Assembly (NCBI GenBank): GCA_963693285.1
Contig: OY848922.1
Location: 8,420,923 to 8,484,922, forward strand
Reading direction: 5' to 3'
Length of the DNA: 64,000 bases
Source: Xestospongia muta
Lineage: Eukaryota > Porifera > Demospongiae > Haplosclerida > Petrosiidae
Of this stretch, positions 17,701-63,092 are shown one piece after another. The notes beneath the pieces were generated by a model. The model worked only from the letters and a program-made list of their open reading frames with translations, was not told the origin of the DNA and ran no database searches. The position numbers and the translations under genes are program-made. The number at the start of each line of letters is the position of its first letter. Within the stretch, counting starts at the first letter, position 1.

Positions 17701-18625
17701 AATTACTAAACTCAGTATTACCACTTCCATTTCGCAAATCAATGTAAACTCCTCCTCCTTCTCCTCCATATGGAGCAGTATTGTTGTATATAGTGCAATT
17801 ACTAAACTCAATACTACCACTGCCTTTTTGCAACTCAATGTTTACTCCTCCTCCTCCATACTGAACAATATTATGTGAAAACTCACTACTTTCAATGATT
17901 ATCTCAACTTCAATATCATTATCAACATCATATACCAAACTCATGCCACTTCCTAAACCCAGTGTAAAATTTGATTTCACGATATTAACTCTGGATAGTT
18001 TTTTAACCTGGTCATCATAGTAAATTAATGCATTGCCTACATCAGTCTTAAGATCTCCATTATTAGCAAATGTGGAATTGATGATTAACACATCAAAAGC
18101 TTTGTAAAGAACTAGTCCAATACCAGAACTATTCTGGACTGATACCCATTCCAATATGACATTATTGATGTTAACAAATAATAAGCTAACACTATAATTT
18201 GCATTCAAATTAAATCCACAGTTTGTTATTGTTATTGATTTTAATACAACACATGTGCTATTAGTAAATTGTATACCACCTCCGTTGTAATCACTACATC
18301 TTATTACTGAGGTAGATTGCATAACAGTCTCGTGAAAGCCTTGTTCTATATGACCCAGTCCCTGTAGAGTTATATTACTTACACCACTGATCTCCAATGT
18401 ACCTTGTAGAATATGAGTTCCCTTTAGGAAGTAGAAGATTGTGTCATCAGTGAAGTAAGATGTATAATCAGCATTATAATAGGAGAGGTTGTGACAAGGT
18501 AGGTCAGTATGGGGACAAGGTACTCCATTAGGATCTGTAGAGACATAATACTCAGAAGCAGTAACATATCCACTGTAGATATACAGTATAACTGATGTTA
18601 TATAATAGATATGACACCAGCTCAT
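14756..18625 (-). CDS. PMP-like beta-helix repeat multi-pass membrane protein, copy F (1289 aa)
   Basis: Intact single-exon paralogue of gene E with the same order: signal peptide (1-24), Asn-rich lead-in, beta-helix repeats, Cys-rich segment near residue 862, about eight or nine membrane segments (about 880-1260), and an acidic tail. Only seven repeat units occur (about 256-480), against 23 in E. Two carry a GGEGGG insertion also seen in copy A. The membrane domain is almost unchanged from E and G, while the ectodomain differs in repeat number and in residues flanking the GGG motif. The start is fixed by homology and by a TATA box 106 bp upstream. Confidence 0.9.
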   Translation of the reverse strand: MSWCHIYYITSVILYIYSGYVTASEYYVSTDPNGVPCPHTDLPCHNLSYYNADYTSYFTDDTIFYFLKGTHILQGTLEISGVSNITLQGLGHIEQGFHETVMQSTSVIRCSDYNGGGIQFTNSTCVVLKSITITNCGFNLNANYSVSLLFVNINNVILEWVSVQNSSGIGLVLYKAFDVLIINSTFANNGDLKTDVGNALIYYDDQVKKLSRVNIVKSNFTLGLGSGMSLVYDVDNDIEVEIIIESSEFSHNIVQYGGGGVNIELQKGSGSIEFSNCTIYNNTAPYGGEGGGVYIDLRNGSGNTEFSNCTIYNNTARNRGEGGGVYIDLRNGRGSTEFSNCTIYNNTAPFGGGVSIYIHNGSGSTEFSNCIIYNNSAQYGGGGVYFYLYDGSGSTEFSNCTIHNNTALFGGGVSIYIHNGSGSTEFSNCIIYNNSAQHRGGGVYFHLYDGSGSTEFSNCTIYNNTAYYGSGLYIISLHFTLISRIHFTNVSFQFNRLPMKINKYQSAVFLVNVENVMFSQIDISNHNTTGLVSMNSPIIFDGHSTFVNNSGINGGGIALYGFSQLLLRQNTNISFVNNHASESGGGIFVSQVVYNIDMISCPFENLSYYNNDTKAMLYFVNNTADISGDVLYGGIISHCINFDFDHQFHYPKQKGLSVVSSDPIKACFCESNIQNCSITNINITAIPGINVNISLATVGNKDGLTKGVIKLTTSDSSSSTVQTDNTRLNATCTNVTFKLTANPSLNTTKVYVRVEGFISEFSSEVHPIFIDISIESCPIGYPLVNDACSCRSELNTSSISCDINTQIITRDGDMWIGYNNDSDCLIVYPHCPFDYCNDGTVQFKITSPDPQCLYNRSGILCGQCSEGLSLMLGSNQCGQCTNNYIALIIPFGLAGIALVAFIIALNLTVSVGTINGLIFYANVVKIYEPIFFPNGPVKLLSQFISWLNLDLGIETCFIDGMDSCSKTWLQFIFPAYVWFLLILIVISSQYSSKVVRLVGSHAVPVLATMILLSYTKLIRTVFKTLYFINIQCNGNNNVTLLRWYIDANIQYVGGYCHLPLFLFSVAVLILLIVPYTLCLLAIPLLEGPLSKYMCCCQKYMKPFFDAYGGPYKDKCRFWTGFLLLVRVILALVVSLDIKATISLDVLTSLLFVIISMYFLLKGIYRHLPLACLEMSFFLNLMIMAYVSVQTYKESNSRQLLSVGLVSVSFVIFCGIILYHVWDYLSKSCLKQPIAKIKRVFKKPQPDPVTDDSEIPLMHPGSPALSCETSSVSVVSVVMRRESLLYDEDD

Positions 18626-19129: not shown

Positions 19130-22222
<3,093 letters not shown>

Positions 22223-25531: not shown

Positions 25532-28500
25532 TTAGTCATCTTCATCATCCAGTAGTGATTCTCGTCTCATTACTACTGATACCACACTCACTGAACTAGT
25601 TTCACATGATAAAGCAGGAGATCCAGGAAGCATTAAAGGGATTTCTGTATCATCAGTAATAGGATCTGGTGGAGGCTTCTTAAATACCTTCATGATTTTT
25701 GCAATTGGTTGTTTTAAACAAGATTTAGATAGATAGTCCCAGACATGATAGAGGATAATACCACAGAATATTACAAATGATACTGATACTAAACCAACAC
25801 TTAACAGTTGCCTTGAATGTGACTCTTTGTAAGTTTGTACACTCACATAAGCAATGAACATGAGATTAAGAAAAAAAGACATCTCTAGACAAGCCAAAGG
25901 TAAATGTCGATATATTCCTTTTAAAAGGAAGTACATTGATATAATAACAAATAAAAGAGATGTTAACACATCCAAACTTATAGTAGCCTTAATATCTAGA
26001 GACACAACCAGTGCTAATATAACACGAACAAGTAGTAAAAATCCAGTCCAAAAACGACACTTGTCCTTATATGGACCTCCATATGCATCAAAGAAAGGCT
26101 TCATATACTTTTGGCAGCAACACATGTATTTTGATAGAGGTCCTTCAAATAATGGTATAGTAAGAAGATAGAAAGTGTATGGTACAATTAGTAAAATGAG
26201 TACAGCCACTGAGAACAGGAACAATGGTAGATGACAATAACCTCCTACATATTGGACATTAGCATCAATGTACCACCTCAATAATGTCACATTATTATTA
26301 CCATTACACTGAATATTGATGAAATAAAGAGCCTTGAAGACAGTACGTATCAGTTTAGTATAAGAGAGAAGGATCATAGTGGCTAGTACTGGAACTGCAT
26401 GTGAACCCACAAGTCGAACCACTTTGCTGGAATATTGTGATGATATTACAATGAGCATTAGTAGAAACCAAACATAGGCTGGAAAGATAAACTGTAGCCA
26501 TGTCTTACTGCAAGAATCCATACTATCAATGAAACAAGTCTCAATACCCAGATCTAGATTGAGCCAGGAAATGAATTGACTTAGAACTTTCACAGGACCA
26601 TTGGGAAAGAAGATGGGTTCATATATTTTGACAACATTAGCATAGAATATAAGTCCATTGATTGTACCCACAGACACAGTTAAGTTTAAAGCAATGATAA
26701 AAGCTACCAGTGCTATACCAGCTAAACCAAATGGAATGATAAGAGCTATGTAGTTATTAGTACATTGTCCACATTGATTGGAACCTAACATGAGACTGAG
26801 TCCTTCACTACATTGTCCACAGAGTATGCCAGATCGATTGTAAAGACACTGTGGATCTGGAGAGGTGATTTTAAATTGAACTGTTCTATCATTGCAGTAA
26901 TCAAAGGGGCAGTGAGGATAAACAATAAGACAGTCTGAGTCATTATTATAACCAATCCACATATCACCATCTCTAGTTATAATTTGAGTGTTAATATCAC
27001 AAGTTATTGAAGATGTATTTAATTCAGATCTACAACTGCAAGCATCATTTACTAATGGATAACCAATTGGACAGGACTCAATACTAATGTCAATGAATAT
27101 AGGATGAACTTCAGATAAAGGTTCACTGATTAAATCTTCAACTCTTACATAGACTTTTGTTGTGTTCAATGAAGGGTTTGCTGTTAACTTGAAGGTTACA
27201 TTGGTACAAGTTGCATTTAGTCTAGTATTGTCAGTTTGTACAGTAGATGATGAACTATCTGATGTTGTCAATTTTATTACACCCTTTGTTAAGCCATCTT
27301 TATTACCAACAGTAGCTAGTGATATATTGACATTAATTCCAGGTATTACTGTTATATTGATGTTTGTAATAGAGCAATTTTGTATGTTTGATACACAAAA
27401 ACACACTTTGATAGGATCTGATGACACTACTGATAGACCTGTCTGTTGAGGGTAATGAAATTGGTGATCAAAGTCAAAGTAGATACAATTAAAGATTTTA
27501 CCTCCATACAAGACATCACCAGATATATCAGCTGTATTGTTGACAAAATATAATATTGTCTTAGTATCATTATTATAATAAGAAAGATTTTTAAAGGGAC
27601 AATTTTTGATGATGTTGTTATCAATAACTTGTGACACAAATATTCCTCCACCTGACTCACTGGCATGATTATTGACAAATGATATGTTTGTGTTCTGTTT
27701 TAGTAATAATAGAGAGAATCCATACAAAGCAATGCCTCCACCATTAATACCAGAATTGTTTACAAATGTACTATGTCCATCAAATATTATTGGGCTATTG
27801 ATACTCACTAAACCAGTTGTGTTATGATTACTAATGTCAATTTGGCTAAACATAACATTTTCAATGTTCATAAGAAACATATTAGATTGATATATGTTAA
27901 GCTTGTTTGGTACTTTATTGAATTGAAATGAAACATTTGTGAAATGAATACTACTTGTTGAAGTATATTGTAAAGCACTAATGTACACTCCTCCTCCATA
28001 CTGAGCAGTATTGTTGTATATAGTGCAGTTACTAAACTCCATACTACCACTTCCATTATACAAAAAAATCAACACACCTCCTCCACTCCAAGCAGTATTG
28101 TTGTATATAGTGGAATTTCTAAACTCAATACTACCACTTCCATTATGCAATTGAATGTACACTCCTCCTCCACACTGATGAGCAGTATTGTTGTATATAG
28201 TGCAATTATAAAGCTCAATACTACCATTTCCATTATTGAAATAAAAGTTCACTCCTCCTCCATACTGAGCAGTATTATTGTATATAGTGCAATTATTAAA
28301 CTCAGTACTACCACTTCCATTATACAAATAAACGTTTACTCCTCCTCCATTACTAGCAGTATTGTTGTATATAGTGCAATTTCTAAACTTATTATTACCA
28401 CTTCTATTATGCAAATCAATGTACACTCCTCCTCCTACTTGCTGAGCAGTATTGTTGTATATAGTGCAATTATTAAACTCAGTACTACAATTTCCATTAT

Positions 28501-29578
28501 TGATATAAATGGTCACTCCTCCTCCATACTGAGCAGTATTATTGTATATAGTGCAATTATTAAACTCAGTACTGCCACTTCCATTATACAAATAAACGTT
28601 TACTCCTCCTCCATTACTAGCAGTATTGTTGTATATAGTGCAATTTCTAAACTTATTATTACCACTTCCATTATGCAAATCAATGTACACTCCTCCTCCT
28701 ACTTGCTGAGCAGTATTGTTGTATATAGTGCAATTATTAAACTCAGTACTACAATTTCCATTATTGATATAAATGGTCACTCCTCCTCCATACTGAACAA
28801 TATTATGTGAAAACTCACTATTTTCAATGATTATCTCAACTTCAATTTCATTATCAACATCATACATCAAAGTCATACCACTTCCTAAACCCAATGTAAA
28901 ATTTGATTTCACGATATTAACTCTGGACAGTTTTTTAACCTGGTCATTATAGTAAATTAATGCATTGCCTACAACATTCTTAAGACCTCCATTATTAGCA
29001 AATGTGGAATTGATGATTAACACATTAAAACTGTTGTAAAGAAGTAGTCCAATACCAGAACTATTCTGGACTGATACCCATTCCAATGTGACATTATTGA
29101 TGTCAACAAAGTATAAGCTAATGCTTACATATATATTGTTTACTAGGTAACTAGTATTATAAAGACTTCCACAGTTTGTTATTGTTATTGATTTTAATAC
29201 AACATTTGTGCTATTAGTAAATTGTATACCACCTCTGTTGTAATCACTACACCTTATTACTAAGGTAGATTGCATGACAGTCTCATGAAAGCCTTGTTCT
29301 ATATGACCCAGTCCCTGTAGAGTTATATTACTTACACCACTGATCTTCAATGTATCTTGTAGAATATGAGTTCCCTCTAGGAAGTAGAAGATTGTGTCAT
29401 CAGTGAAGTAAGATATATAATCAGCAGTATAGTAGGAGAGGTTGTGACAAAGTAGGTCAGTATGAGGACAAGTTACTCCATTAGGATCTGCAGAGACATA
29501 ATACTCAGAAGCAGTAACATATCCACTGTAGATATACAGTATAACTGATGTTATATAATAGATATGACACCAGCTCAT
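25532..29578 (-). CDS. PMP-like beta-helix repeat multi-pass membrane protein, copy G (1348 aa)
   Basis: Intact single-exon paralogue of E and F. The start at MSWCHIYY (29578) is preferred over an in-frame ATG ten codons upstream, because it matches the other copies and keeps the 105-bp spacing to the TATA box. Order: signal peptide, lead-in, nine beta-helix units (about 260-540), Cys-rich segment near residue 920, about eight or nine membrane segments (about 940-1320), acidic tail DDEDD. The repeats contain a duplicated three-unit block (AQQVGGG, ASNGGG, AQYGGG occur twice in order), as in gene E but with different unit sequences. Expansion in threes therefore arose independently in the two genes. 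Confidence 0.9.
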   Translation of the reverse strand: MSWCHIYYITSVILYIYSGYVTASEYYVSADPNGVTCPHTDLLCHNLSYYTADYISYFTDDTIFYFLEGTHILQDTLKISGVSNITLQGLGHIEQGFHETVMQSTLVIRCSDYNRGGIQFTNSTNVVLKSITITNCGSLYNTSYLVNNIYVSISLYFVDINNVTLEWVSVQNSSGIGLLLYNSFNVLIINSTFANNGGLKNVVGNALIYYNDQVKKLSRVNIVKSNFTLGLGSGMTLMYDVDNEIEVEIIIENSEFSHNIVQYGGGVTIYINNGNCSTEFNNCTIYNNTAQQVGGGVYIDLHNGSGNNKFRNCTIYNNTASNGGGVNVYLYNGSGSTEFNNCTIYNNTAQYGGGVTIYINNGNCSTEFNNCTIYNNTAQQVGGGVYIDLHNRSGNNKFRNCTIYNNTASNGGGVNVYLYNGSGSTEFNNCTIYNNTAQYGGGVNFYFNNGNGSIELYNCTIYNNTAHQCGGGVYIQLHNGSGSIEFRNSTIYNNTAWSGGGVLIFLYNGSGSMEFSNCTIYNNTAQYGGGVYISALQYTSTSSIHFTNVSFQFNKVPNKLNIYQSNMFLMNIENVMFSQIDISNHNTTGLVSINSPIIFDGHSTFVNNSGINGGGIALYGFSLLLLKQNTNISFVNNHASESGGGIFVSQVIDNNIIKNCPFKNLSYYNNDTKTILYFVNNTADISGDVLYGGKIFNCIYFDFDHQFHYPQQTGLSVVSSDPIKVCFCVSNIQNCSITNINITVIPGINVNISLATVGNKDGLTKGVIKLTTSDSSSSTVQTDNTRLNATCTNVTFKLTANPSLNTTKVYVRVEDLISEPLSEVHPIFIDISIESCPIGYPLVNDACSCRSELNTSSITCDINTQIITRDGDMWIGYNNDSDCLIVYPHCPFDYCNDRTVQFKITSPDPQCLYNRSGILCGQCSEGLSLMLGSNQCGQCTNNYIALIIPFGLAGIALVAFIIALNLTVSVGTINGLIFYANVVKIYEPIFFPNGPVKVLSQFISWLNLDLGIETCFIDSMDSCSKTWLQFIFPAYVWFLLMLIVISSQYSSKVVRLVGSHAVPVLATMILLSYTKLIRTVFKALYFINIQCNGNNNVTLLRWYIDANVQYVGGYCHLPLFLFSVAVLILLIVPYTFYLLTIPLFEGPLSKYMCCCQKYMKPFFDAYGGPYKDKCRFWTGFLLLVRVILALVVSLDIKATISLDVLTSLLFVIISMYFLLKGIYRHLPLACLEMSFFLNLMFIAYVSVQTYKESHSRQLLSVGLVSVSFVIFCGIILYHVWDYLSKSCLKQPIAKIMKVFKKPPPDPITDDTEIPLMLPGSPALSCETSSVSVVSVVMRRESLLDDEDD

Positions 29579-29674
29579 GATGATAGCGTGTTGAACAGTA
29601 AAGATCAAATGAACAATAGAGAATTAATGTCAAACTGATGAACAAACAAGATAATTTAAGTTGTATTTCTGCAG

Positions 29675-33671: not shown

Positions 33672-38963
<5,292 letters not shown>

Positions 38964-39206
38964 TTTAGATTTTTGACTCATTCTTTTGTCGGCTTGGGAT
39001 TTGATTATAATGTCTGTATTTTGTGAAAGACAGTGTTGTTTATGAATGTTTGCTCAACTGTACCATATCAGTATGCAATTATTGAGTTATTGAGCTATCT
39101 TGCACAACATTTTATAGTGATTGTGTTGTTTTATTACTCTCTAAAGCATCCTCCCTGTTAGTTATAGACAAAGATGCTTCTTTAAGAGTACAGTCTGAGT
39201 AAGGAC

Positions 39207-40033
39207 AACCTCTATATTGAGGACACTTGTTCTAGTCCCATACTAATACTTTAGTGTATTATACAACCTCTATATTGAGGACACTTGTTCTAGTCCCATA
39301 CTAATACTTTAGTGTATTATACAACCTCTATATTGAGGACACTTGTTCTAGTCCCATACTAATACTTTAGTGTATTATACAACCTCTATATTGAGGACAC
39401 TTGTTCTAGTCCAATACTAATACTTTAGTGTATTATACAACCTCTATATTGAGGACACTTGTTCTAGTCCCATACTAATACTTTAGTGTATTATACAACC
39501 TCTATATTGAGGACACTTGTTCTAGTCCCATACTAATACTTTAGTGTATTATACAACCTCTATATTGAGGACACTTGTTCTAGTCCAATACTAATACTTT
39601 AGTGTATTATACAACCTCTATATTGAGGACACTTGTTCTAGTCCCATACTAATACTTTAGTGTATTATACAACCTCTATATTGAGGACACTTGTTCTAGT
39701 CCCATACTAATACTTTAGTGTATTATACAACCTCTATATTGAGGACACTTGTTCTAGTCCAATACTAATACTTTAGTGTATTATACAACCTCTATATTAA
39801 GGACACTTGTTCTAGTCCCATACTAATACTTTAGTGTATTATACAACCTCTATATTGAGGACACTTGTTCTAGTAGTCCCATACTAATACTTTAGTGTAT
39901 TATACAACCTCTATATTGAGGACACTTGTTCTAGTAGTCCCATACTAATACTTTAGTGTATTATACAACCTCTATATTGAGGACACTTGTTCTAGTAGTC
40001 CCATACTAATACTTTAGTGTATTATACAACCTC
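39207..40033. repeat. Main array of the 58-bp palindromic minisatellite (about 14 units)
   Basis: Head-to-tail units with almost no divergence. Each holds CCTCTATATTGAGG, TTGTTCTAGTCCCATACTAA and TACTTTAGTGTATTATACA. The last three units carry an extra AGT, making 61 bp. Lies between the GCAT stop (38963) and the cystine-knot gene. There are no unique spacers, so it is not a CRISPR-like layout. Confidence 0.95.
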
Positions 40034-47968: not shown

Positions 47969-50484
47969 ATGTCACTTGAGGATCCTTTTTATACCGTACG
48001 AGAGTAAGTTAAACATTTCCTAGTTTATATTGAATATTAGCGTCTTTTTCCTTTAGCGATGTTCGCGATTCACTAAATAATGCTCAGCAGTTATACTCTC
48101 AATGGTGTATGCTGTTAGAGGATCAATCTGACTTAGAAAAGCTCCAGACAGCATCAACAGACTTGAGATCATGTATAAAAAGCATAGAGTGGGATTTACA
48201 AGACTTGGAGGAAACCATAAGTCAGTGAATGAATTATCTGTGTATTTACGACTATTCTGATATAGGTATTGCTGAAACCAATCCTCAAAAGTTTAGATTA
48301 AGTGTTGGTGAACTAGAAACTAGAAAACATTTTATTCGTGATACCAAACATGTTGTTGATGTAAGTACTGCTAACTCAACTTGTCAACATAATATTATAA
48401 TGTTTGTTAACAGGACATAATATACAGTAGACTAACTTACTTTAAAAGTGTTGTGTTATTGCATCTGATGTGTGTCTTGTGACCATTTATGTCCATATGG
48501 GTGGCTATTGATGTCCATTAGCCCATCCCAATGTCAAAGAGCTTTGTAGCAGTACTATGCCTTTTATCATAATGCTTTGATAATGTAACTCCTACTATAT
48601 TTCTTACTATAGAAAATTAAGACACACATGACTAGTAACCAGGCACAGGGAGTTATGGAAAATATGAAGAGACAAGTAAGTTAATAATATCTATTTTTGG
48701 AAGAATTTCAATAGTAAACTGTGTCACTATATTTAGTATAGAGGTGTCCTCAATATAGAGGTTGTATAATACACTAAGGTATTTGTGTGGGACTAGAACA
48801 AGTGTCCTCAATATAGAGGTTGTATAATACCTGAAGTGTTTGTGTGGGACTAGGAAAAGTGTTCTAAATAAAGAGGATGTCAATTCACTGTATAGTTTCG
48901 ATGTGAGTGAACTTCTCTATATAAGGTGGCCTTACTTTAAAGGCATTGCTTAAGGTCCCTTATGGATTGCTCCATAAAAAGAGAAAGACTTTTTAATTAA
49001 CACAACCCCATGGAGTGTAGATAACAGATGTATATACATGTGTGTTTCCCCATTTGGGAATAGTTGCTGTTCTGTTTTGTTGACAGGACATCATTATTGC
49101 ATCATACTATGACAATATAAGGACATATACATGTATAGCGGATATGTAATATAATGTACTATCATCCGATTGTTCTTGTGGTCACTTCCCTTTACTATTG
49201 GTTTGGTAACTGATGTCATAACTTTATCTGTTCCGTGCTTTTGTGGGTTTCCCTAGTAAACTGTAGTTGTCGTAGCAACAGATATTTGAATGGGTTCATG
49301 TGACGTCATGAATATTATTATAGCAATGATGAATTTGGTATGATATCCCATGAAGTTATTGAGTTAGCATACAAGCATACTGTATTAAGGACACTCCCTA
49401 TATTGAGGACACTTGTTCTAGTCCCATACTAATACTTTGGTGTATTATACAACCTCTATATTGAGGACACTTGTTCTAGTCCCATACTAATACTTTAGTG
49501 TATTATACAACCTCTATATTGAGGATACTTGTTCTAGTCCCACGCTAATACTTTAGTATATTATACGACCTCTATATTGAGGACATCTCTTGGACTAGTA
49601 TTAATGAACAGCACAAAAAGAGAGGATGTCCCTGTAATTACAATAATTAACCTAATAAGCTCTCCTATTGTGTCTCCAACTTACTTGGCAGTTATATTAA
49701 TTATGGACATTGTTGATAAATGTTTTACCTAAAATAAGTAATATGCACTTGTATATTTATTCCATATAAACTACAGTTGTTAATGTTGTGTCTCTTTATA
49801 TAGCAATTATTGAGCAGTAGTTCACAGAAAAAGTCTCGTGGACGATATCAGAAATTAGAGGAAGAGTTAGAACGTTCCAATCAAGATTATATTGATCAAC
49901 AACAACATCAGCAACAAGTAACTATTTGTCCATTCATGTTATGTCTGTCCATCTCCTTGTTGTCTATTCATCCATTAAACCATCCATTCATCCATTAAAC
50001 CATCCATTTATCCATTAAACCATCCATTCATCCATTATGTCTGTTTTATTCATTTGTTAATCTATCTTTGTACTACCATTCATCCATTCATCTTTTAACC
50101 TGTCCATTCATTTATCCATCCATCCATCTATATATTCATGTCGTCCATTGTCTATTTATGCATCTATAGTACTACTTTTATATGTCCATTTATCTCTTAG
50201 ATGCTTCTCACACAACAAGATCAAAAAATTGATAAAGTCAGTGGGACAATAGGAGTATTACATAAGATGGGTCAAGATATAGGAATCGAGTTAGACGAAC
50301 AAAATAAGTTAGTATATTTGTTGTTAAAAACATGTATTTTTAATGTTTTTTTAGAATTATTGATGATATTGATGATGATATACAAAGAACTGATACCCGA
50401 CTTGTGGCTCTGACAAAACGTGTAAATAAAGCAATCAGAAACTCTAGTGGTAAGTTTATATATAGCGTCATACATTGTATAGAT

Positions 50485-50610: not shown

Positions 50611-50850
50611 TGAAATAATATAAATTATTTATAACTTTCCTTTCTGTTATTTGTTCTTGAAATATCACAATGTTTACTGTAATACCAATTTAATTAATGG
50701 GCGTGTCATGATTCTATGTTAACCACGCCCTCTTTTTATATGCGCATGCGTTTATCATTACATCAGTCAGCAGAAATTCAAAGAAGAAGCGCCAGTACTT
50801 ACCTCATCAGGGCCAAGTCTTAGAGAATAAACTATTTAAAAAGAGTAGTC

Positions 50851-51724
50851 ATGTCTATAGACGATTATACAAAGATTGAAAAGATTGGAGAAGGGACTTA
50901 TGGTGTCGTTTACAAGGTAAGTCGTCATCCATGGTATATTGAATAGTATCTTTTACTCTTTTTAAAGGCTAGACATAAAGCCACTGGTAAGTTTGTTGCC
51001 TTAAAGAAAATACGTCTTGAGAGTGAGGAAGAAGGTGTGCCCAGTACAGCTATTAGAGAGATTTCTATATTGAAGGAAGTTCAACATCCTAATGTTGTGA
51101 CGTAAGTTAGAGAGTGTGCGTGTGTGTATTGTGAAGTAAGCGGAATATCCTGATAGAATGCCTCGAGACAATCTCTCTCTCTCTTTCTCTCTTTATCGTA
51201 GACTTGAGGAAATAATTCATCAAGATTCTAAGTTCTATCTTGTTTTTGAATTCATGAGTATGGACTTAAAGAAATATCTTGATACTATTCCAGCTGGACA
51301 ATATATTGATCCAGTATTACTAAAGGTAGTAATGGATACATGATTTGATAGATGGATACATGGATTGACAAATGGATGAATAGATAAATGGATTAATAGA
51401 TAAACATATAACTGAATGGATGGATGTATGGATCAATGGATGGACATACAGATACCAATCTACAATGAACATATATTATAGTAGTCATATCCATTGTAGA
51501 TGTTCTATTATTAATATTATTATTTACTTCATTATTTCTTATATTTATAGAGTTATACTTACCAGATCCTCAAAGGTACAGTTTTCTGTCATTGTCGACG
51601 TATTATTCATCGTGACTTAAAACCACAAAACCTGTTAATTGATGCCAAAGGTGCTATTAAACTGGCCGATTTTGGACTTGGACGAGCCTTTGGTATACCA
51701 GTTCGCGCATATACCCATGAGGTA

Positions 51725-51802
<78 letters not shown>

Positions 51803-52337
51803 ACCCCTTTTTAAATTACACAGGTAGTAACACTGTGGTACAGGGCCCCTGAAGTCTTACTTGGTTCAGCACGATATTCTTGTCCCATTGATGTGTGGAG
51901 TATAGCTTGTATATTTGCTGAAATGTCTAATAAAAAACCTTTGTTTCAAGGAGACTCTGAAATTGATCAGCTCTTTCGAATTTTCAGGTTTATCAAACAG
52001 GTTTTATAAACTTGTTTAACTAGTTCCACTGTAGGATTTTGGGCACACCTAATGATACAACATGGCCTAATGTAACAGAACTACCAAACTTTAAACCAAA
52101 TTTCCCTAAATGGATTGGTAAGACAATAAAACAAGTTTGTCCTCGACTTGATGCAGCAGGCTGTGACCTATTAATGGTAAGTTATTGTTGAATGATCCTT
52201 TTAATTCTAGTTGTATTTAATATCAGCAAATGTTGGTTTATAATCCTGGGAAGAGAATGTCAGCAAAGACTGCTATACAACATCCTTATTTCAGTGATTT
52301 AGACAAGTCAGGTCTACCTGATACAGTGCAGTCTTAA
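50851..52337 (+). CDS. CDK1: Cyclin-dependent kinase 1
   Basis: Seven exons in frame (50851-50916, 50968-51101, 51202-51325, 51551-51721, 51824-51987, 52035-52176, 52227-52337) give 303 residues (human 297). Diagnostic features: [10 protein letters not shown] with the inhibitory Thr/Tyr pair, [20 protein letters not shown] with the exact PSTAIRE cyclin helix, [18 protein letters not shown], and the T-loop [15 protein letters not shown] with its activating Thr. It is the cell-cycle kinase partner of cyclins A and B. One oddity: the DFG region reads DFGLGRAFG where animals I recall have DFGLA. A CT tract fills the intron before exon 5. This is the working copy; 58672-60094 is its ruined duplicate. 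Confidence 0.95.
51728..51798. repeat. (CT)n microsatellite in CDK1 intron 4
   Basis: Fills most of the intron; a similar tract (59550) is in the pseudogene copy. Confidence 0.9.
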
Positions 52338-52541
52338 GAAGATGTTATACAGTACTATTTTATGTCTCATTAACTGTATACTGTATTAACACACACTAAT
52401 ACATGTGAATTGAATAAGTTCTAATAAATAAAATGACTTGTATATTCTAAGATTACTTGTTTTATGATGGAACTTGTAAGTAGTGAGTTGTCCTCAATTA
52501 AAATAACTGAGATTCTTATTAAGGGCGTGTCTGTAGAGAAG

Positions 52542-55500
52542 ATGGCTACATCTAGATCAGTTTTGTCTACATTATTATATTAGTTATCTATTGTTATGTG
52601 TGTGTGTGTCATGTTCTATAGATTATTATGTACCTACAAAGAGGTCATATCACTCCACACATATAGTGGGTGACTACCTCTACATGTGGGGTGGTTATAT
52701 ACATGGTCTCCCTGAGGTACATGATAATGAAGTCAAACAGAGGATGACCTCTGTTATTGAGTTATTTCACTTACCAACTGGTAAGTGGGAACAACAACCT
52801 ACCAATGGAAAACCTCCACTGGGTGTCTCTTGTTATGCCTCAACTATTATCAGTAACAGGATCTACTACTTTGGAGGATATTGTAGTCATGACAAGTGTC
52901 GTCACAACAGTCTCAACTCATTAATAACAGATTCACTTACATGGAATGAACTGTTCCCAACTAATCCAAGTATGGGTCCAATGATGAAGTCAGACTGTGG
53001 GATGATATCTCTTACATTCAATAAAGTGGATTATCTACTGGTAGTTGGTGGATATGGTCCATGTCCTACCTCTCCACAACCTGGTGCTCAGTATAGTAAT
53101 ATTTATGGTGCTAATGTTCATACTAATGAGCACCATTACTATCAGTTATCCAGTTGTAAGAAGATCAATATATCATGTTATCAATACATTATATATCAAG
53201 TTCAATTTTATAACTGTTTGTATTTCAGGTCAGTGGATAACACCAGATATTAGTGAAGAATCCCCACCTCCTTGTAGCCACTTCACTCTTACATCACTAC
53301 CAAATAACAGAGCTCTGTTATTTGGTGGTGATACTCCTAATGGTCCTGTTAACACTGTGTATATTGCACAATGTACAAAGACTGCAGTGGTGAGTACAAT
53401 ATGTACTAAGTTAAAGTATTTAGTTACTGTATAATATTGTGGAGTAATCAAGTTTAAAGTTTGAGAATGTTGAATGAACTAAATTTAGAGTACTTAGAGT
53501 AAACAATTGAGTTGACAAGGAGGTAATATTTACTTAAAACTCCTGTCAAAGCTTGATCTATCATTTACTAACTGATATACAAAGTTTAAAGCTATTGTTT
53601 ATCAGGAATGTTCATAATCACTTCTAACTCTAGAAACTTTAATGATTCACAATTATATTTTAAATACTGTCCTTGATTAGACAATGTCCTCAAATAGTAA
53701 ATTTCCCTGTTGTTGATGAATATTGAAATAGATGTCCCAGGTCTTATTGAAGGAAATATGGTAACTAAATTAAAATCCACATAAAGTATAAAATGAGCAA
53801 TATTCTTAAACATTTCCCAGTATACAGTATTAATTACAGCTATGTTAATTGTATAATATGTTAACTTGAGTATTATCTACCCAGCACTGGGAGAAGATAA
53901 GTGAACCACTTCCCAAATCAGTGAATTGGCCTCAGAGGAAATATGGTCATGCTACCACTATTATCAGTGACCTACATGTGATGATAGTGGGTGGAGCTGG
54001 TACACATGACAGCTGGTTATTTAACATTGATACAAAGACATGGACAAAGGTTAGTTACTAGTTAACATGTGACCTAACTCTAACACAAAGTGAGTTAATA
54101 TCTATGATCTACAGTATGAGGGGACATAATAAAGTTTGAACTTTGACCTCTGACAATAACCCTCATCTATAGAAAATTTATGATTAATAATAGTTATTGT
54201 TTTTATGACCTGGTTTTATAACTGTAGTCCTGACACTATAGTATGTTAACATTTATGATAGTATAGTCTTTTGATATATCTGATTTGTTTATAGTTGTAA
54301 TTCAGTTATTAAAGACTATACATAAGTACTTATGTTCATGTTTTAAAGTCTTGTAACATGTCAACTCTACCAGTTGATACAAAGTTATAGTCTGTTACTA
54401 GAGTACATGTATCCACTGATGTTACATGTATAATGACTAGTTTTGTAGTAATATCATAACATCATTATTATAATGTCATATAGTACACTATATTCCATCT
54501 TATAGCTCACTATACCAGAGTCAGTGACTAAGAGACATGGCCACTCCCTCTCAGTATGGAATGTGTCACCTTCCACTGTATGGGTAATACAATTTGGAGG
54601 ATACTATCGTGGTAAACTCAATGACACTACAGTGGTAGAACTTAGTAAGTACTGTCTATTGATGATAGTATTTGTTATATAGTACACACACACATTATCA
54701 GTATTATCACAGTATGATATAGGAGTGTTGACACACTAACTGTTTGTATTACAAACTAGTCTCATAACTCAATACTATTGTAACATACTATATCTCTCAC
54801 TGTAGTATGTAATAATGACCAATGGTCTCCAGGCGATGTAATAACTAACCTGAGGTCAACTGAAGAATATCAACTTAAGCTACGACAGAAGAGACAAGAA
54901 ACATCTGTACAACCTTTTGTGAGACATGGACAACCTCAACTTACTGTCCAATCTCCTACATGTCTTCAACCTTCTTCTTCATCACATCAAGAGTCACAAG
55001 AGAAAGATAGAGAAATCCAACGATTAACACAACAACTTGAAGTTACCAACAAAGAGCTACAAGATACCAAACAACAGCAGATAAATGTGACAAGAGCTCT
55101 TGAAGAGGACCTTCAAACAAAAGAAAGACAACTAAATCAACTACATCGAGAACTTCAAGAGAAACAACAAACTCAAGCTACACTTCAGAGTGAACAAAGA
55201 TTACTTCAACAACAGCTACAGGATAGTCAAGAGAGGGAAAGAGTACTACGTCAAGAGTGTGATGACCTTTGCCGAGAACATGAAAATATTGAACAAGATC
55301 TTCGTCAACAACTCCAAGAGTCAACATCTGCTCTTCAACAAAGACAACACACTATATCCACTCTTCAACAACAAGTTCAACAGTTACAAGAACAGTCTCA
55401 CTGGGTAGTGAGGAGAGAGGAGATTGAGATGACAGTGGAGATCCTTGGGAAAGGAGGTTGGGGAGAAGTCAAGGTGGCTAAATTTCGTGGCCTTAAAGTA

Positions 55501-56154
55501 GCTGCCAAATGTCTTCATGAAGTTATCCTGTCACCATATAACATATCAGTTTTTACACGAGAAATGGAGATTGCTGCTCGAGTACGTCATCCTAATCTCC
55601 TCCAGTTCATAGGAGCCACTCGAGTGGGTACTCCTATCATCCTATCTGAATTAATGCCAACTAGCCTTCGTAAAGAGCTAGAAACTGGTCCTCTACCTTA
55701 TCATGGTGTTTTAGCAATCAGTCAAGATATAGCCTGTGGTCTCAACTATCTCCACCTCTTTAAACCAGACCCAATACTGCATAGAGATGTCAGCACTGCT
55801 AACATCCTTCTTACTCGTGGTGATTACAGTTGGAGAGCCAAGGTATCAGACTATGGTTCAGCTAATCTTCAACCAATGATTGGTCGAACAGTCAATCCAG
55901 GTAATCCAGTTTATTCTGCTCCAGAAGCTGGTGTACCAAGAGACCATTCTCCTGCAATGGATGTTTACAGTTATGGTGTTGTCTTGATTGAAATGATGAT
56001 CTGTCGTATTCCTGAGGTAGCTCAGAGACAACTTCATATTAACAGTATTCGACGACAAGCGTTTAAAGCTCTTATTGAACGATGTTTGAAGGAGAATCGT
56101 AGAGAACGTCCAACAATGTCTGAGATCATAAGAGACTTCAATGAAACCATTTAA
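52542..56154 (+). CDS. Kelch / coiled-coil / TKL-type protein kinase
   Basis: Exons: 52542 to about 52560, 52622-53155, 53229-53389, 53885-54049, 54506-54644 and 54806-56154; about 788 residues. Residues 1 to about 360 are kelch repeats (YLYMWGG, RIYYFGG, YLLVVGG, RALLFGG, VMIVGG, WVIQFGG), probably one beta-propeller. About 385-535 is a Gln/Glu-rich coiled coil. About 545-785 is a kinase: LGKGGWGEV loop, VAAKCL with the ATP-binding Lys, HRDVSTANILL with catalytic Asp and Asn, DYG in place of DFG, and APEA. All catalytic residues are present, so activity is plausible. There is no signal peptide, so a cytosolic sensor-kinase is inferred. The exon 1 donor reads TCAG|TTTTG (no GT at the position used by the duplicate); an ATG at 52591 reads straight into exon 2 and may be the real start. 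Confidence 0.85.
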
Positions 56155-56273
56155 TAGTAGACAATAATATAGTGTGTATTACAATATTATTAGTGAGTTT
56201 ATTTTAATAGTTGGTTTAGTTATTGTACTATGTGTGATCATTATAATAATATTACCATATTTGGACATTTCAC

Positions 56274-56431
56274 TATCTCAACCTCCTACTTCTAAAACAG
56301 CTGACAAAATGACTCAATCAGAGACTATCCAGTGGCCAGCTATGAAACATCTCGTTCAAAGGTGTATCTCTCATGAGAGTCAAGTTCGTCCATCTATTTC
56401 TCAAGTACTTACTTACCTTGAACATATGTAG
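56274..56431 (+). pseudogene. Kinase C-terminal tail remnant
   Basis: An open frame ends with WPAMKHLVQRCISHESQVRP and SISQVLTYLEHM, the pattern of a protein-kinase last helix (RC....RP.....L). It lies just after the complete kinase stop at 56154 and does not belong to it. It is probably the leftover of another kinase copy, or an alternative 3' exon. Upstream residues in the frame are hydrophobic and may be chance. 56432-56910 holds nothing else recognised. Confidence 0.5.
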
Positions 56432-56910
56432 TTCATCCACTATACATGTAAGTAGTTCATTTAGTATAATCTTCCTATAATGTACTATGAGTATTATATT
56501 ATTTAGTAGTTTGTATATTACTGTTGTATTACTGTGTGACTAGAATTATTATTAGTATTGAGTGTATTACCATATATGGACATTATAAATATAATTAGTA
56601 TTACTTATGAATAATCTTTTGTGTGTGACCTTTTTCATTTATTAATTTTATATTAACAAGTTATTATTTATAATATAATAAGTTGATCTTTAAAAGGGTC
56701 CACCTCCTACTATGTCAAGATCCGTCAAGATGGATTATCCCAGGTTCGCCTACTCCACGTTTGCCTACTAATTCTCACATATTACAGTTTTACCTACTAT
56801 TAAGTATTCATTAAATTAATAATAATTATTTTCAAAATGGTGGAAATGTACAATATAGAAAAGGTAAGTATTGTATTATATGACTACAGATATGTAAGTT
56901 CTAAATTTAC

Positions 56911-57759
56911 CTATATGTTAGTGTGTGCAGCCATACCAGCTACATATTCAGACAAGCTGATAGCATTATTTGAAAACCTTTTCTTAAGTTCAGTAACCTT
57001 TTTGTCTCTTGTTATTGACTTTAAGGTCCTTCTGGGTGGTTTTGATCCTGTTGATAACTGTTGGAGAGATATTTCTGTGGATGTTTGCTCCCTTTGAAAA
57101 ATCTTCACACATTCGAAGATGTTAGGGTGTGGTTTTCTGACGACTCTTTTTAATCGGTTATGCCAACTTTCTAAATGATTGTTGGTCCGTAGTCCATCTA
57201 CATAAATTGTATCTGACTCACATAGTAGCTCAATATTTTTGTCTGTTCCAAATATTATTAGCTTATCATCTCCATCTCCATCCTCAGCAATAAGAAAAGG
57301 TTCTCCAGAAGGTGTCTTAACCCATTTGTCATTAAAATGTACATCTCCCCGACTTTTGGGAATTGTTGGTAATCGTTTACGCCGACTGTCATACAAAGAT
57401 GTTTTACATTGATCAAATGTAGGCATCTTTGAGGCAAGATCATCTTTGTTGTTCATGCTAGCTATCTCTTGAATTGCATCATGATATATAGCAGGAATTG
57501 GTCTTGTAGTCTTCATGGCCTTTATCTTCATGTTGGAAACAATTTTTTCTATTGCAATTTCATCCTCGTCTGGCTCATGATTATGGACATCTCGTTGAGA
57601 TAGAATGTTATCATCCATTGTAGTAATAGAACCACTGCAGCTCCTACTTCTCCCACATCTCCAGAAAATTCTACCATCCTGTCCTCTTCTATTAATAACA
57701 TATCTGTGTCCTCTATAAATAAGTGCCCTAGGTCCTCTCTTAGTAGTAGTGAAATCCAT
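56911..57759 (-). pseudogene. FLYWCH / MULE-transposase-derived ORF with core deleted (282 aa)
   Basis: The N-terminal part (about residues 10-65) is a FLYWCH-type zinc finger: YRGHRYVINRR, FWRC, SCSG, then VHNHEPDE. The middle reaches SDTIYVDG, the usual beginning of the MULE-type transposase domain. It then jumps to LRTNNHLESWHNRLKR and FQREQTSTEISLQQL, which normally lie at the far end of these proteins. The catalytic centre is therefore missing while the frame stays open. It may be a non-autonomous transposon copy or a domesticated zinc-finger protein. No clear terminal inverted repeats were found. Confidence 0.65.
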
Positions 57760-58034
57760 GATAAAATGAATGTTACCAATTGCAAAAAATGTTCTTTATA
57801 CACACACACACAAGGTATCTAATTTAGTTATCACAGTCTTATATCATGTACATTTTTGTGGGTAAGTATTAACACACTAAAGGATGTGTCAAGACTTGAA
57901 AGGGTAGGTCTTATTAAGTGTAGTAAAATCACACTATGCATCATTTAGTAGACAAACACGGACATTACCCTCAATATAGAGGGTGTCCTCACTGGGAAGT
58001 TCCACATTATTACATGATATGTTTCATTTTTTAG

Positions 58035-58302
58035 TCAAGCTACCAACTGTTACTATTGAGTCGGAAAGTCCAGTGGTTTCCATGGCAACACATACTCCAC
58101 TACATTGTAGTTCACTACCTGTATCAGTCTCATTTGCCATTCATCATAAGTGGGTGTGGTTACATTAGTAACTATGATGTAATATTGTACTCTAGATGGT
58201 CTAGTCTCCTTGATCCTACAGGAGGTGAGATGTCATTATGTTCTGGTTTAGTGAGTATTGTAGTCACTGACAAGAATATGTTAGCTGGAGTGTATAAACT
58301 AG
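58035..58302 (+). pseudogene. Orphan exons of an exosome subunit (EXOSC8/RRP43-like)
   Basis: Two pieces, 58035-58149 and 58196-58302, join in phase with proper GT-AG borders. They read KLPTVTIESES, then PVSVSFAIHHK, LLDPTGGEMSLCSGLVSIVV and LAGVYKLG. This resembles the C-terminal RNase PH-like part of EXOSC8 (KLPTVTI, DPTGEEE, KPGG). No upstream or downstream exons of such a gene are present, and the next block is the CDK1 duplicate, so it looks like a gene cut by a rearrangement. 57760-58034 shows nothing else. Confidence 0.5.
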
Positions 58303-58671
58303 GTAAACCACACCCACTACCACACCCCTTTATATTACACTAAATCTTTCAATAATTCTATCCTCTAACTTATAAATTTATCAGTACAATAGTTCATGAT
58401 TATGTAATATTATGTAACAACAACATATCATATAACAAACTAGTGTGGTCTATTATAATCTTGTTTAATAACTAGTATTAATAACTATTTCATTCATTGG
58501 TTAATATCATTATTATTAATTATCTCTATTATATTAGGGGGCGGGAGATCCCAGAATATCTAATCCCAAAACATGTAATAGTCAAAATGTCTAATTCAAT
58601 GAATGTGTGGAAGAAGTGTCACTACTTACCTCATCAGGACCAAGTCAAGAAAATATTTAAAAAGAGCAGTC

Positions 58672-59546
58672 ATGTCTATAGACGATTATACAAATATTGA
58701 AAAGATTGGAGAAGGGACTTATGGTGTTGTTTACAAGGTAAGTTGTCATCCATGGTATATTGAATGGTATCTCTTACTTGTTATAAAGGTTAGACATAAA
58801 GCCACTGGTAAATTTGTGCCCTTAAAGAAAATACGTCTTGAGAGTGAGGAAGAAGGTGTGCCCAGTACAGCTATTAGTGAGATTTCAATATTGAAGGAAG
58901 TTCAACATCCTAATGTTGTGACGTAAGTGAGAGTGTGTGTGTGTGTGTATTGTGAAGTAAGCGGAGTATCCTGATAGAATGCCTCGAAACAATCTCTCTC
59001 TCTTTATCGTAGACTTGAGGAAATAATTCATCAAGATTCTAAGTTCTATCTTGTTTTTGAATTCATGAGTATGGACTTAAAGAAATATCTTGATACTATT
59101 CCAGCTGGACAGTATATTGATCCAGTATTACTAAAGGTAGTAATGGATACATGATTTGATAGATGGATACATGGATTGACAAATGGATACATGGATGAAT
59201 AGATAAATGGATTAATAGATAAACATATAATTGAATGGATGGATGTATGGATCAATGGATAGACATACAGATACCAATCTACAATGAACATACATTATAG
59301 TAGTCATATCCATTGTAGATGTTCTATTATTAATATTATTATTTACTTCATTATTTCTTATATTTATAGAGTTATACTTACCAGATCCTCAAAGGTACAG
59401 TTTTCTGTCATTGTCGATGTATTATTCATCGTGACTTAAAACCACAAAACCTGTTAATTGATGACAAAGGTGCTATTAAACTGGCCAATTTTGGACTTGG
59501 ACGAGCCTTTGGTATACCAGTTCGTGCATATACCCATGAGGTATTA

Positions 59547-59625
<79 letters not shown>

Positions 59626-60094
59626 CTCTTTTTAAATTACACAGGTCGTAACACTGTGGTAGCTTGTATATTTGCTTAAATGTCTAATAAAAAACCTTTG
59701 TTTCAAGGAGACTCTGAAATTGATCAACTGTTCCGAATTTTCAGGTTTATCAAACAGGTTTTATAAACTTGTTTAACTAGTTTCCCTGTAGGATTTTGGG
59801 CACACCTAATGATACAACATGGCCTAATGTAACAGAACTACCAAACTTTAAACCAAATTTTCCTAAATGGATTGGTAAGACAATAAAACAAGTTTGTCCT
59901 CGACTTGATGCAGCAGGCTGTGACCTATTAATGGTAAGTTATTGTTGAGTGATCCTTTTAATTCTAGTTGTATTTAATATCAGCAAATGTTGGTTTATAA
60001 TCCTGGGAAGAGAATGTCAGCAAAGACTGCTATACAACATCCTTATTTCAGTGATTTAGACAAGTCAGGTCTACCTGATACAGTGCAGTCTTAA
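58672..60094 (+). pseudogene. CDK1: CDK1 pseudogene (duplicate of 50851-52337)
   Basis: All seven exon equivalents can be placed. Changes that kill or cripple it: the cyclin helix reads PSTAISE, the Mg-binding DFG is NFG, and ALKK is PLKK. A 64-bp deletion in exon 5 (missing the counterpart of 51841-51904, covering YRAPEV and beyond) shifts the frame and creates TAG, and the codon GAA of the segment FAEMS is TAA. The rest, including introns and exon 7, is near-identical to the working gene, so the loss is recent. Confidence 0.95.
59550..59622. repeat. (CT)n microsatellite in the CDK1 pseudogene
   Basis: Counterpart of 51728-51798. Confidence 0.9.
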
Positions 60095-60300
60095 GAAGAT
60101 GTTATACAGTACTATTTTATGTCTCATTAACTGTATACTGTATTAACACACACTAATACATGTGAATGGAATACGTTCTAATAAATAAAATGACTTGTAT
60201 ATTCTAAGATTACTTGTTTTATGATGGAACTTGTAAGTAGTGAGTTGTCCTCAATTAAAATAACTGAGAGGTTCTTATTAAGGGCGTGTCTGTAGAAAAG

Positions 60301-63092
60301 ATGGCTACATCTAGATCAGGTTTGACTACATTATTATAATAGTTATCTATTGTTATGTGTGTGTGTGTGTCATGTTCTACAGATTATTATGTACCTACAA
60401 AGAGGGATGGTCACTCTACACATATAGTGGGTGACTACCTTTACATGTGGGGTGGTGATATAGATGGTCTCCCTAAGGTACATGATAATGAAATCAAACG
60501 GAGGATGACCTCTGTTATTGAGTTATTTCACTTACCAACTGGTGAGTGGGAACAACGACCTACCAATGGAAAACCTCCACTGGGTGTCATTGGCTATACC
60601 TCAACTATTATCAGTAACAGGATCTACTACTTTGGAGGCCATTGTAATCATGGCCAGTGTTGTCACAACAGTCTCAACTCATTAATAACAGATTCACTTA
60701 CATGGAATGAACTGTTCCCAACTAATCCAAGTGTGGGTCCAATGATGAAGTCAGGCTGTGGGATGATATCTCTTACATTCAATAAAGTGGATTATCTACT
60801 GGTAGTTGGTGGATGGGGTCCACGTCCCACCTCTCCACAACCTGGTGCTCAGTATAGTGATGGTGGTAATGTTCATACTAATGAGCACCACTACTATCAG
60901 TTATCCAGTGGTAAGAAGATCAATATATCATGTTATCAATACATTATACATCAAGTACAATTTTATAACTGTTTATATTTCAGGTCAGTGGATAACACCA
61001 GATATTAGTGGGGAACACCCACCTCCTTGTACTGCATTCACTCTTACATCACTACCAAATAACAGAGCTCTGTTATTTGGTGGTTATACTCCTAATGGTC
61101 CTGTTAACACTGTGTATATTGCACAATGTACAAAGACTGCAGTGGTGAGTACAATATGTACTAAGTTAAAGTATTTAGTTACTTGTATAATATTGTGGAG
61201 TAATCAAGTTTAAAGTTTGAGAATGTTGAATGAACTAAATTTAGAGTACTTAGAGTAAACAATTGAGTTGACAAGGAGGTAATATTTACTTAAAACTCCT
61301 GTCAAAGCTTGATCTATCATTTACTAACTGATATACAAAGTTTAAAGCTATTGTTTATCAGGAATGTTCATAATCACTTCTAACTCTAGAAACTTTAATG
61401 ATTCACAATTATATTTTAAATACTGTCCTTGATTAGACAATGTCCTCAAATAGTAAATTTCCCTGTTGTTGATGAATATTGAAATAGATGTCCCAGGTCT
61501 TATTGAAGGAAATATGGTAACTAAATTAAAATCCACATAAAGTATAAAATGAGCAATATTCTTAAACATTTCCCAGTATACAGTATTAATTACTGCTATG
61601 TTAATTGTATAATATGTTAACTTGAGTATTATCTACCCAGCACTGGGAGAAGATAAGTGAACCACTTCCCAAATCAGTGAATTGGCCTCAGAGTAGATGG
61701 CTTCATGCTACCACTATTATCAGTGACCTACATGTGATGATGGTGGGTAGATATGATAAATCATATAAGACTATTGCTGACAGCTGGTTATTTAACATTG
61801 ATACAAAGACATGGACAAAGGTTAGTTACTAGTTATCATGTGACCTAACTCTAACACAAAGTGAGTTAATGTCTATGATCTACAGTATGAGGGGACATAA
61901 TAAAGTGTGACTATTCGAACTTTGACCTCTGAAAATAACCCTCATCTATAGAAAATTTATAATTAATAATAGTTATTGTTTTTTATGACCTGGTTTTATA
62001 ACTGTAGTCCTGACACTATAGTATGTTAACATTTATGATAGTATAGTCTTTTGATATATCTGATTTGTTTATAGTTGTAATTCTGTTATTAAAGACTGTA
62101 CATAAGTACTTATGTTCATGTTTTAAAGTCTTGTAACATGTCAACTCTACCAGTTGATACAAAGTTATAGTCTGTTACTAGAGTACATGTATCCACTGAT
62201 GTTACATGTATAATGACTAGTTTTGTAGTAATATCATAACATCATTATTATAATGTCATATAGTACACTATATTCCATCTTATAGCTCACTATACCAGAG
62301 TCAGTTACTAAGAGAAATGGACACTCCCTCTCAGTATGGAATGTGTCACCTACCACTGTATGGGTAATACAATTTGGAGGATACTATCGTGGTCAACATA
62401 ATGATACTACAGTGATCGAACTTAGTAAGTACTGTCTATTGATGATAGTATTTGTTATATAGTACACACACACATTATCAGTATTATCACAGTATGATAT
62501 AGGAGTGTTGACACACTAACTGTTTGTATTACAAACTAGTCTCATAACTCAATACTATTGTAACATACTATATCTCTCACTGTAGTATGTAATAATGACC
62601 AATGGTCTCTATCAAATGTAATAACTAACCTGAGGTCAACTGAAGAATATCAACTTAAGCTGCAAGAGAAGAGAAGTGAATGTATGAATTAATTTTAATA
62701 GCTAGTGTTTAATTATAGGCTTAAAAATAATAGTATGTTTAAAAAATTTGAGTTTTATTTATACTATAGATATTGAAGATATATTAGCCAAGAAACCAGA
62801 CTTTACTGATGTTGTTGATCTATTAGCTGATATTAAGTATGAGTGGGAAAAAATTGGCATTGCCTTGAAAGTCAGGCAAAGTGATTTGGGTGAGCTACGA
62901 CAAAAGGAAGATTGTACTATTAAGCTTATTGGTGTGATTAGAAGCTGGCAGAATACTATGCCAACAGAGATCACATGGAAAGTGGTCATTGCAGCAATTG
63001 AGGGACGAATTGTGAATCATCGTGCAACTGGAATAGAGATACGTAAATTTCTTGCTAAGCAATACAAAATTACTTGGGTTGACTACATTTAA
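60301..63092 (+). CDS. Kelch / Death-domain protein (481 aa)
   Basis: Seven exons join in frame: 60301-60319, 60383-60910, 60984-61144, 61641-61820, 62286-62424, 62586-62681 and 62770-63092. Residues 1 to about 370 are the kelch propeller, paralogous to the kelch-kinase at 52542. Exon 6 keeps the shared EEYQLKL, then uses a new donor (GAAT|GTATGA) instead of running on into coiled coil. The last exon encodes a Death-fold domain (about residues 390-470) with YEWEKIGIALKV, SDLGEL, IGVIRSWQ, ITWKVVIAAIEG and IRKFLAKQY. The conserved Trp and helix pattern fits the Death superfamily (adaptor-type protein interaction in apoptosis or innate immunity). No kinase follows. It is likely cytosolic. A kelch-Death architecture is unusual to my knowledge. 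Confidence 0.85.

Follow-up and report, generated by a model that had tools for sequence, protein, structure and literature searches.

How can the coding exons of duplicated genes diverge much further than the introns that separate them? This question is raised by a pair of kelch genes in a 64,000-nucleotide stretch of contig OY848922.1 from the sponge Xestospongia muta (hereafter, the window). The pair belongs to a tandem duplicate in which each unit combines a CDK-like gene with a kelch gene downstream of it (unit A, 50783-56154; unit B, 58610-63092). Both kelch genes begin with a short exon 1 that encodes MATSRS, followed by the kelch exons 2-5, and the two differ in their C-terminal parts. 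The features of the two units, all on the forward (+) strand, are as follows.

50783..52337, +, CDK-like gene of unit A, named from motifs by eye; duplicated along with kelch gene A
52542..52560, +, kelch A exon 1, coding part: MATSRS and the first base of the next codon (coordinates by eye)
52622..53155, +, kelch A exon 2 (534 bp)
53156..53228, +, kelch A intron 2
53229..53389, +, kelch A exon 3
53390..53884, +, kelch A intron 3, with dozens of near-identical copies genome-wide
53885..54049, +, kelch A exon 4, with a short loop before DSWLFN
54050..54505, +, kelch A intron 4
54506..54644, +, kelch A exon 5, the last blade
54645..54805, +, kelch A intron 5
54806..56154, +, kelch A exon 6, encoding a coiled coil and a kinase domain (Pkinase, E 1.8e-31), through the stop codon
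58610..60094, +, CDK-like gene of unit B, identified from motifs by eye; duplicated along with kelch gene B and used as a local control for divergence
60301..60319, +, kelch B exon 1, coding part, followed by a GT donor (coordinates by eye)
60383..60910, +, kelch B exon 2 (528 bp)
60984..61144, +, kelch B exon 3
61145..61640, +, kelch B intron 3
61641..61820, +, kelch B exon 4, with a long loop (DKSYKTIAD)
62286..62424, +, kelch B exon 5
62586..62675, +, kelch B exon 6, a linker whose 3' end is a GT donor read by eye
62770..63092, +, kelch B last exon, Death-like domain, through the stop codon

In copy A, the base that follows exon 1 does not start a GT donor, which is present in 21 of 22 copies. 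No signal peptide was seen by eye in exon 1 (MATSRS) of either kelch gene, so that the products of A and B, and the proteins of the family at large, are probably intracellular.

The first-pass annotation, made by eye, put the difference between the two copies of intron 3 at about two positions, and alignment yields one substitution and one single-base indel in ∼495 bp. Its count of 30 or more differences in exon 2, about five of them synonymous, holds as well (35 bases, with 24 nonsynonymous, 5 synonymous and 2 gap codons), as does the replaced loop before DSWLFN in exon 4, which is longer by five codons in B. Altogether, 70 of the 990 bases differ in the kelch exons, compared with 10 of the 1095 in the introns (Fisher p 2.8e-14), and the four exons contain 44 nonsynonymous codons and 8 purely synonymous ones. 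The contrast between conserved introns and diverged coding loops is therefore genuine in this pair, and it extends far beyond two genes. The annotation also named an outcome that would speak against diversifying selection, namely, dN/dS below 1 with the synonymous divergence of the exons equal to their total divergence. For this pair, the result is ambiguous: the Nei-Gojobori estimates are 0.075 for dN and 0.073 for dS, that is, a dN/dS of ∼1.0 with dS close to the total exon divergence of 0.071, but dN and dS each exceed the intron divergence of 0.009 about eightfold.

A search of the 158-Mb, 28-contig assembly with exon 2 gave at least 150 related kelch matches, and a second search likewise at least 150, a copy number typical of a large multigene family. 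Intron 3 alone has 75 matching pieces, dozens of them near-identical, on contigs C1, C2, C6 and C12. Among 33 close copies that were compared, out of the 60 exon 2 matches in the close-copy list, the mean pairwise difference is 7.9, 9.0, 11.8 and 14.5% for exons 2-5, respectively, and 3.2, 5.2, 3.4 and 3.7% for introns 2-5 (median of 3.6% for intron 3). In a core of 21 genes, with the older lineages left out, the kelch exons are more diverged than the introns in all 210 pairs (8.7% versus 2.2%), including pairs on different chromosomes. The codon analyses encompassed 29 of the 33 copies, after removal of L013 (frameshift), L027 (stop), and L032 and L037 (incomplete sequence). Over the resulting 406 pairs, dN/dS is 0.93 (bootstrap 95% 0.73-1.16) and dN exceeds dS in only 196, so that the dN/dS outcome named in the annotation is not cleanly avoided by the family either, but dN is greater than the intron divergence in 397 pairs.

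The excess of change in the exons is far from being evenly spread. When hypervariable columns were defined by an entropy of >1.6 bits across the 29 genes, 43 of the 349 columns qualified, 31 of these being occupied in 28 or more genes. Structural faces were assigned from the DSSP line of an AlphaFold model of one relative. On this model, 32 of the 163 residues in the b-c and d-a loops are hypervariable, compared with none of the 165 residues elsewhere, which bears out the earlier placement of the changes in propeller loops. All hypervariable columns that can be placed on the model belong to these loops and hence to a single face of the propeller, and hypervariable residues are absent from the strands and the opposite face of the modeled relative. 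The six-bladed kelch fold matches that of KLHDC2, the human receptor through which Cullin-2 ubiquitin ligases recognize C-degrons, and all seven KLHDC2 pocket contacts named in PMC11377542 fall on hypervariable columns. The variation is thus concentrated at the presumptive ligand site, with 32 of 163 loop residues against 0 of 165 others and seven of seven contacts, as would be the case in a recognition repertoire. The KLHDC2 residues Y50 and R189, which we take to be pocket residues as well, also align with variable columns and are additional to the seven contacts tested. Diversifying selection on a binding surface, one of the two options put forward in the annotation, is well supported by the one-face placement and by the homology of the variable positions with the residues that line the degron pocket of KLHDC2; that this selection on the pocket residues is strong while the scaffold is held by purifying selection is probable.

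A conserved scaffold contradicts relaxed constraint or pseudogenization after duplication. The frameshift in L013, the stop in L027 and the absence of the usual exon 1 donor in copy A would be expected under such decay, but the stretch read is open in 29 of the 33 copies, two of the four exceptions being merely incomplete sequence, the conserved codons have a dN/dS of 0.22, and the strands and the other face are devoid of hypervariable residues, so that this explanation is barely credible.

The introns, in turn, might be unusually constrained, with the exons evolving at an ordinary rate, and their near identity across chromosomes is consistent with such constraint. The flanks contradict it, being about as little diverged. 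Between B and nine close copies (WINA, L022, L017, L012, L026, L019, L014, L010 and L028), divergence is 0-5.9% in the flanks (the last two CDK-like exons and their intervening intron, the intergenic DNA, and kelch exon 1 plus intron 1) and 0-4.3% in the kelch introns, compared with 5.5-14.4% in kelch exons 2-5; for older copies such as L016 and L018, divergence from B is higher throughout, and in several copies, homology to B is lost in the 5' part of the CDK-like gene. The synonymous sites argue against constrained introns, too: at invariant amino acids located beyond five codons from the pocket codons, synonymous diversity is 0.00-0.03, which is not above that of the introns. Special constraint on the introns is, accordingly, very improbable. 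Because the flanks are about as little diverged as the kelch introns and the far synonymous sites no more so, the introns are a fair clock, and all three were adopted as the yardstick of neutral divergence. Within five codons of the pocket codons, synonymous diversity at invariant amino acids rises to 0.03-0.15, and 30 of 66 synonymous sites are polymorphic near the pocket codons, compared with 11 of 56 far from them (p 0.004). It is because of this rise in synonymous divergence beside the pocket codons that plain dN/dS reaches only ∼1, and it was discarded as a misleading test.

Copies B and L026, on separate contigs, differ in 7 of 1095 intron bases, yet 24 of their 31 hypervariable codons differ. 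The number of differing pocket codons averages 23-25 of 31 in every class of intron divergence, from <1% to >7%, and because it does not rise with intron divergence, the pocket is saturated. Targeted germline hypermutation of the pocket codons, akin to diversity-generating retroelements or somatic hypermutation and spilling over to nearby synonymous sites, would explain saturation already at <1% intron divergence as well as the local synonymous rise. It would also fit the linkage among variable codons, which is confined to neighbors (mean z of 2.75, dropping to 0.52 for codons 2-3 apart and to 0.03-0.28 at larger distances, in 26 genes, with near-identical or broken copies left out). However, four genes at C6:7.21-7.24 Mb (L016, L018, L029 and L033) keep their pocket codons, with 1-6 of the 31 differing in the six pairs at an intron divergence of 1.1-4.2%. 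Here the exons are about as diverged as the introns and, in the three pairs tested, not significantly above them (p 0.19-0.8). Diversification is absent or halted in this clade, which implies that pocket codons do not change by themselves. Furthermore, among the 662 T-ending codons at variable sites, TAT occurs 120 times, compared with 13-14 times each for CCT, CTT and GTT, so that the outcomes are selected, and the indel-bearing loops shared between genes are indicative of exchange. Hypermutation thus seems decidedly unlikely.

The loops do carry clear traces of exchange. The length classes of the loops in exons 2, 4 and 5 are mutually independent (26 genes, again without near-identical or broken copies; p 0.72-0.96), although the length of the exon 5 loop, and of no other, depends on the chromosome cluster (p 0.0002). 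In addition, indel-bearing loops that are closely related to one another are found on both C2 and C6. Together, these observations imply that segments have been exchanged or retained from an older pool. An explanation in which exchange dominates, with exon pieces, perhaps derived from spliced cDNA, copied among older and younger members of the family, introns spared and little selection involved, draws on this independent assortment and on the related loops on two chromosomes, as well as on the elevated synonymous diversity near the pocket codons. It also draws on exact matches to a third paralog (sought in a core of 22 genes, older lineages left out) for 12 of the 25 clusters of A-B exon differences on the A side and for 10 of the 25 on the B side. 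Clusters of intron differences, however, match third paralogs at least as often (7 of 12 on the A side and 9 of 12 on the B side). The exon-only conversion proposed in the annotation is partly right, in that segments have been reassorted among the copies. Conversion alone is inadequate because it would not confine the variation to one propeller face; moreover, linkage that links only neighboring codons is shorter than the usual tracts, and copying alone makes no new pocket residues. Gene conversion was therefore rejected as the sole cause, and a dominant role of exchange is unlikely. Of the 219 sites that segregate in the introns of the 22-gene core, 194 are singletons, and the four-gamete test fails for 91 of 300 informative pairs; an apparent strong linkage across 1.5 kb of intron was set aside, since a few older lineages account for much of the depth of the intron tree.

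In our reading, the diversity arises from point mutations together with exchange of short segments, in some mixture, and is then filtered by selection. Overall, it is probable that the window samples a germline repertoire of kelch receptors in which the pocket is under strong diversifying selection fed by these two sources. Counting against this explanation are the plain dN/dS of ∼1, the four genes at C6:7.21-7.24 Mb with little changed pockets, the dependence of exon 5 loop length on the chromosome cluster, the high divergence of intron 4 in a second subfamily (see below), the weak model behind the Death-like domain and the missing exon 1 donor of copy A. Under this scenario, a large family of KLHDC2-type six-bladed propellers would be joined to kinase or Death-like signaling domains; purifying selection would keep the scaffold, whereas the residues on the one face that corresponds to the KLHDC2 pocket would diversify, so that the pockets differ from copy to copy. 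Point mutations and the exchange of short segments among copies on several chromosomes would supply new pockets, and the introns, the flanking CDK-like gene and the far synonymous sites would gauge a short neutral time or strong homogenization.

The other ends of the proteins are compatible with a signaling role. Among the 22 copies with 3' sequence available, 19 encode a coiled coil and a kinase and three a Death-like domain (B, L014 and, over 29 residues, L021). The kinases of the 19 copies fall into two types, with identities of 90-97% and 63-65% to the kinase of copy A, itself a predicted C-terminal kinase domain (PF00069, E 1.8e-31); the Death-like domain of B, a candidate six-helix Death fold, is predicted from a weak model (pLDDT 70.8) and has no Pfam match. 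Given that copies end in either a kinase or a Death-like domain, sensor and output look interchangeable. The residues with which KLHDC2 binds the carboxylate have not been retained: across the 29 genes, Arg occupies the R236 column in none and the R241 column in four, and Ser the S269 column in two. A constant C-degron reading is unlikely for this reason, and the simplest reading would be that recognition is variable and directed at peptides or protein surfaces. Each pocket may bind a distinct protein or peptide, and binding may then trigger the kinase or Death-like domain. The kinase and Death-like outputs, together with the high number of copies, hint at defense or self/non-self recognition, so that the repertoire might serve innate immunity or the discrimination of self. 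An inherited, antibody-like set of at least 150 intracellular kelch receptors in an animal that lacks adaptive immunity, in which ∼30 codons of the pocket used by KLHDC2 to read protein C-termini vary and are reshuffled nearly codon by codon between copies on several chromosomes, with kinase and Death outputs that act in pathogen or self/non-self recognition, is a fuller picture that we offer tentatively, with slightly less than even confidence.

The proposed repertoire resembles several known systems without coinciding with any of them. KLHDC2 is a single gene with a fixed pocket, whereas here there are many copies with a variable pocket, altered carboxylate-binding residues and a C-terminal kinase or Death-like domain. 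Nematodes and plants possess large families of ubiquitin-ligase adaptors with positive selection in the substrate domain and a suggested role in defense; the many copies and the diversified substrate-binding part are shared, but these adaptors use MATH-BTB or F-box domains, none of which was seen here, where a kinase or Death-like domain forms the output. NLR-type intracellular immune receptors, which join a variable sensor to a Death-fold or kinase output in many germline copies, are alike in all these respects, but the sensor here is a kelch propeller, and a NACHT or LRR match is absent in the proteins scanned. In the genes for venom phospholipase A2 and other toxins, introns are more conserved than exons, the same juxtaposition of accelerated exons and conserved introns as here; the kelch proteins, however, show no sign of secretion in their short exon 1 and have no venom context. 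In MHC genes, diverse peptide-binding exons lie beside more uniform introns, and the likeness consists in old or exchanged variation within a narrow linked region of the ligand-binding part, although here the variation was compared among the gene copies of one genome. A literature search, with most subscription journals and bioRxiv preprints outside its reach, found no paper on this family; in PMC6208332, a kelch-motif transcript decreases after microbial signals in each of two tables. How sponges discriminate self, symbionts and pathogens is an open question for which this family provides specific candidates, and selection can be timed by a built-in clock, namely, the contrast of its pocket codons with its introns. 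If the proposed reading is correct, the kelch propeller joins the natural scaffolds for diversified recognition.

The pattern recurs beyond the close copies. In a protein search, all relatives with an organism in the name come from the sponge Amphimedon queenslandica, and the columns that vary among the close copies also vary among 41 proteins of this species (Pearson 0.66, Spearman 0.41, 325 columns). One database protein, P0003, has zero mismatches to L021 across the aligned exons, too little for allele statistics. Within X. muta, a second subfamily of 10 loci at C6:2.25-2.40 Mb, with exon 2 45-48% identical to that of B, matches the close copies in the kind of positions that vary and in the codon-base pattern. 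In these genes, exon 2 differs by ∼8% and intron 2 by ∼3%, whereas intron 4, at ∼12%, is more diverged than exon 2, so that introns of one gene can differ in age.

Judging from the sequences, the output domain, that is, the C-terminal part of the encoded protein, is swapped among the kelch copies, because in close copies elsewhere in the genome (L009-L028) near-identical kelch parts are followed, at the 3' end, by either of two kinase types or by a Death-like domain. The copies differ at other points as well. In copy A, exon 1 is followed by TT (52561-52562), at the position of the GT donor in 21 of the 22 copies, and most copies beyond the cluster in the window carry a few hundred additional bases at positions 103-111 of intron 3 (53492-53500).

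By eye, exon 3 of copy A contains a perfect 28-bp palindrome (53299-53326). Nearly all kelch copies have a self-matching inverted repeat here, which could play a role in exchange between copies.

In the CDK-like gene of block B (58672-60094), visual inspection shows NFG replacing the kinase DFG motif and PSTAISE where PSTAIRE is expected, and therefore, this kinase may be inactive.

Further open frames and tandem repeats in the window include the following.

7603-12873, minus strand, long open frame with a beta-helix domain match (PF13229)
14756-18625, minus strand, likewise
25532-29608, minus strand, likewise
56911-57759, minus strand, open frame matching the FLYWCH zinc finger (PF04500), between duplicate blocks A and B
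21777-22128, 58-bp tandem repeat
37233-37574, 58-bp tandem repeat
39205-40033, 58-bp tandem repeat
49398-49585, 58-bp tandem repeat

The three beta-helix proteins are mutually related and contain tandem repeats of 87-90 bp that vary in copy number. The FLYWCH frame perhaps originates from a mobile element. All four 58-bp sites carry the same repeat, with both orientations represented.
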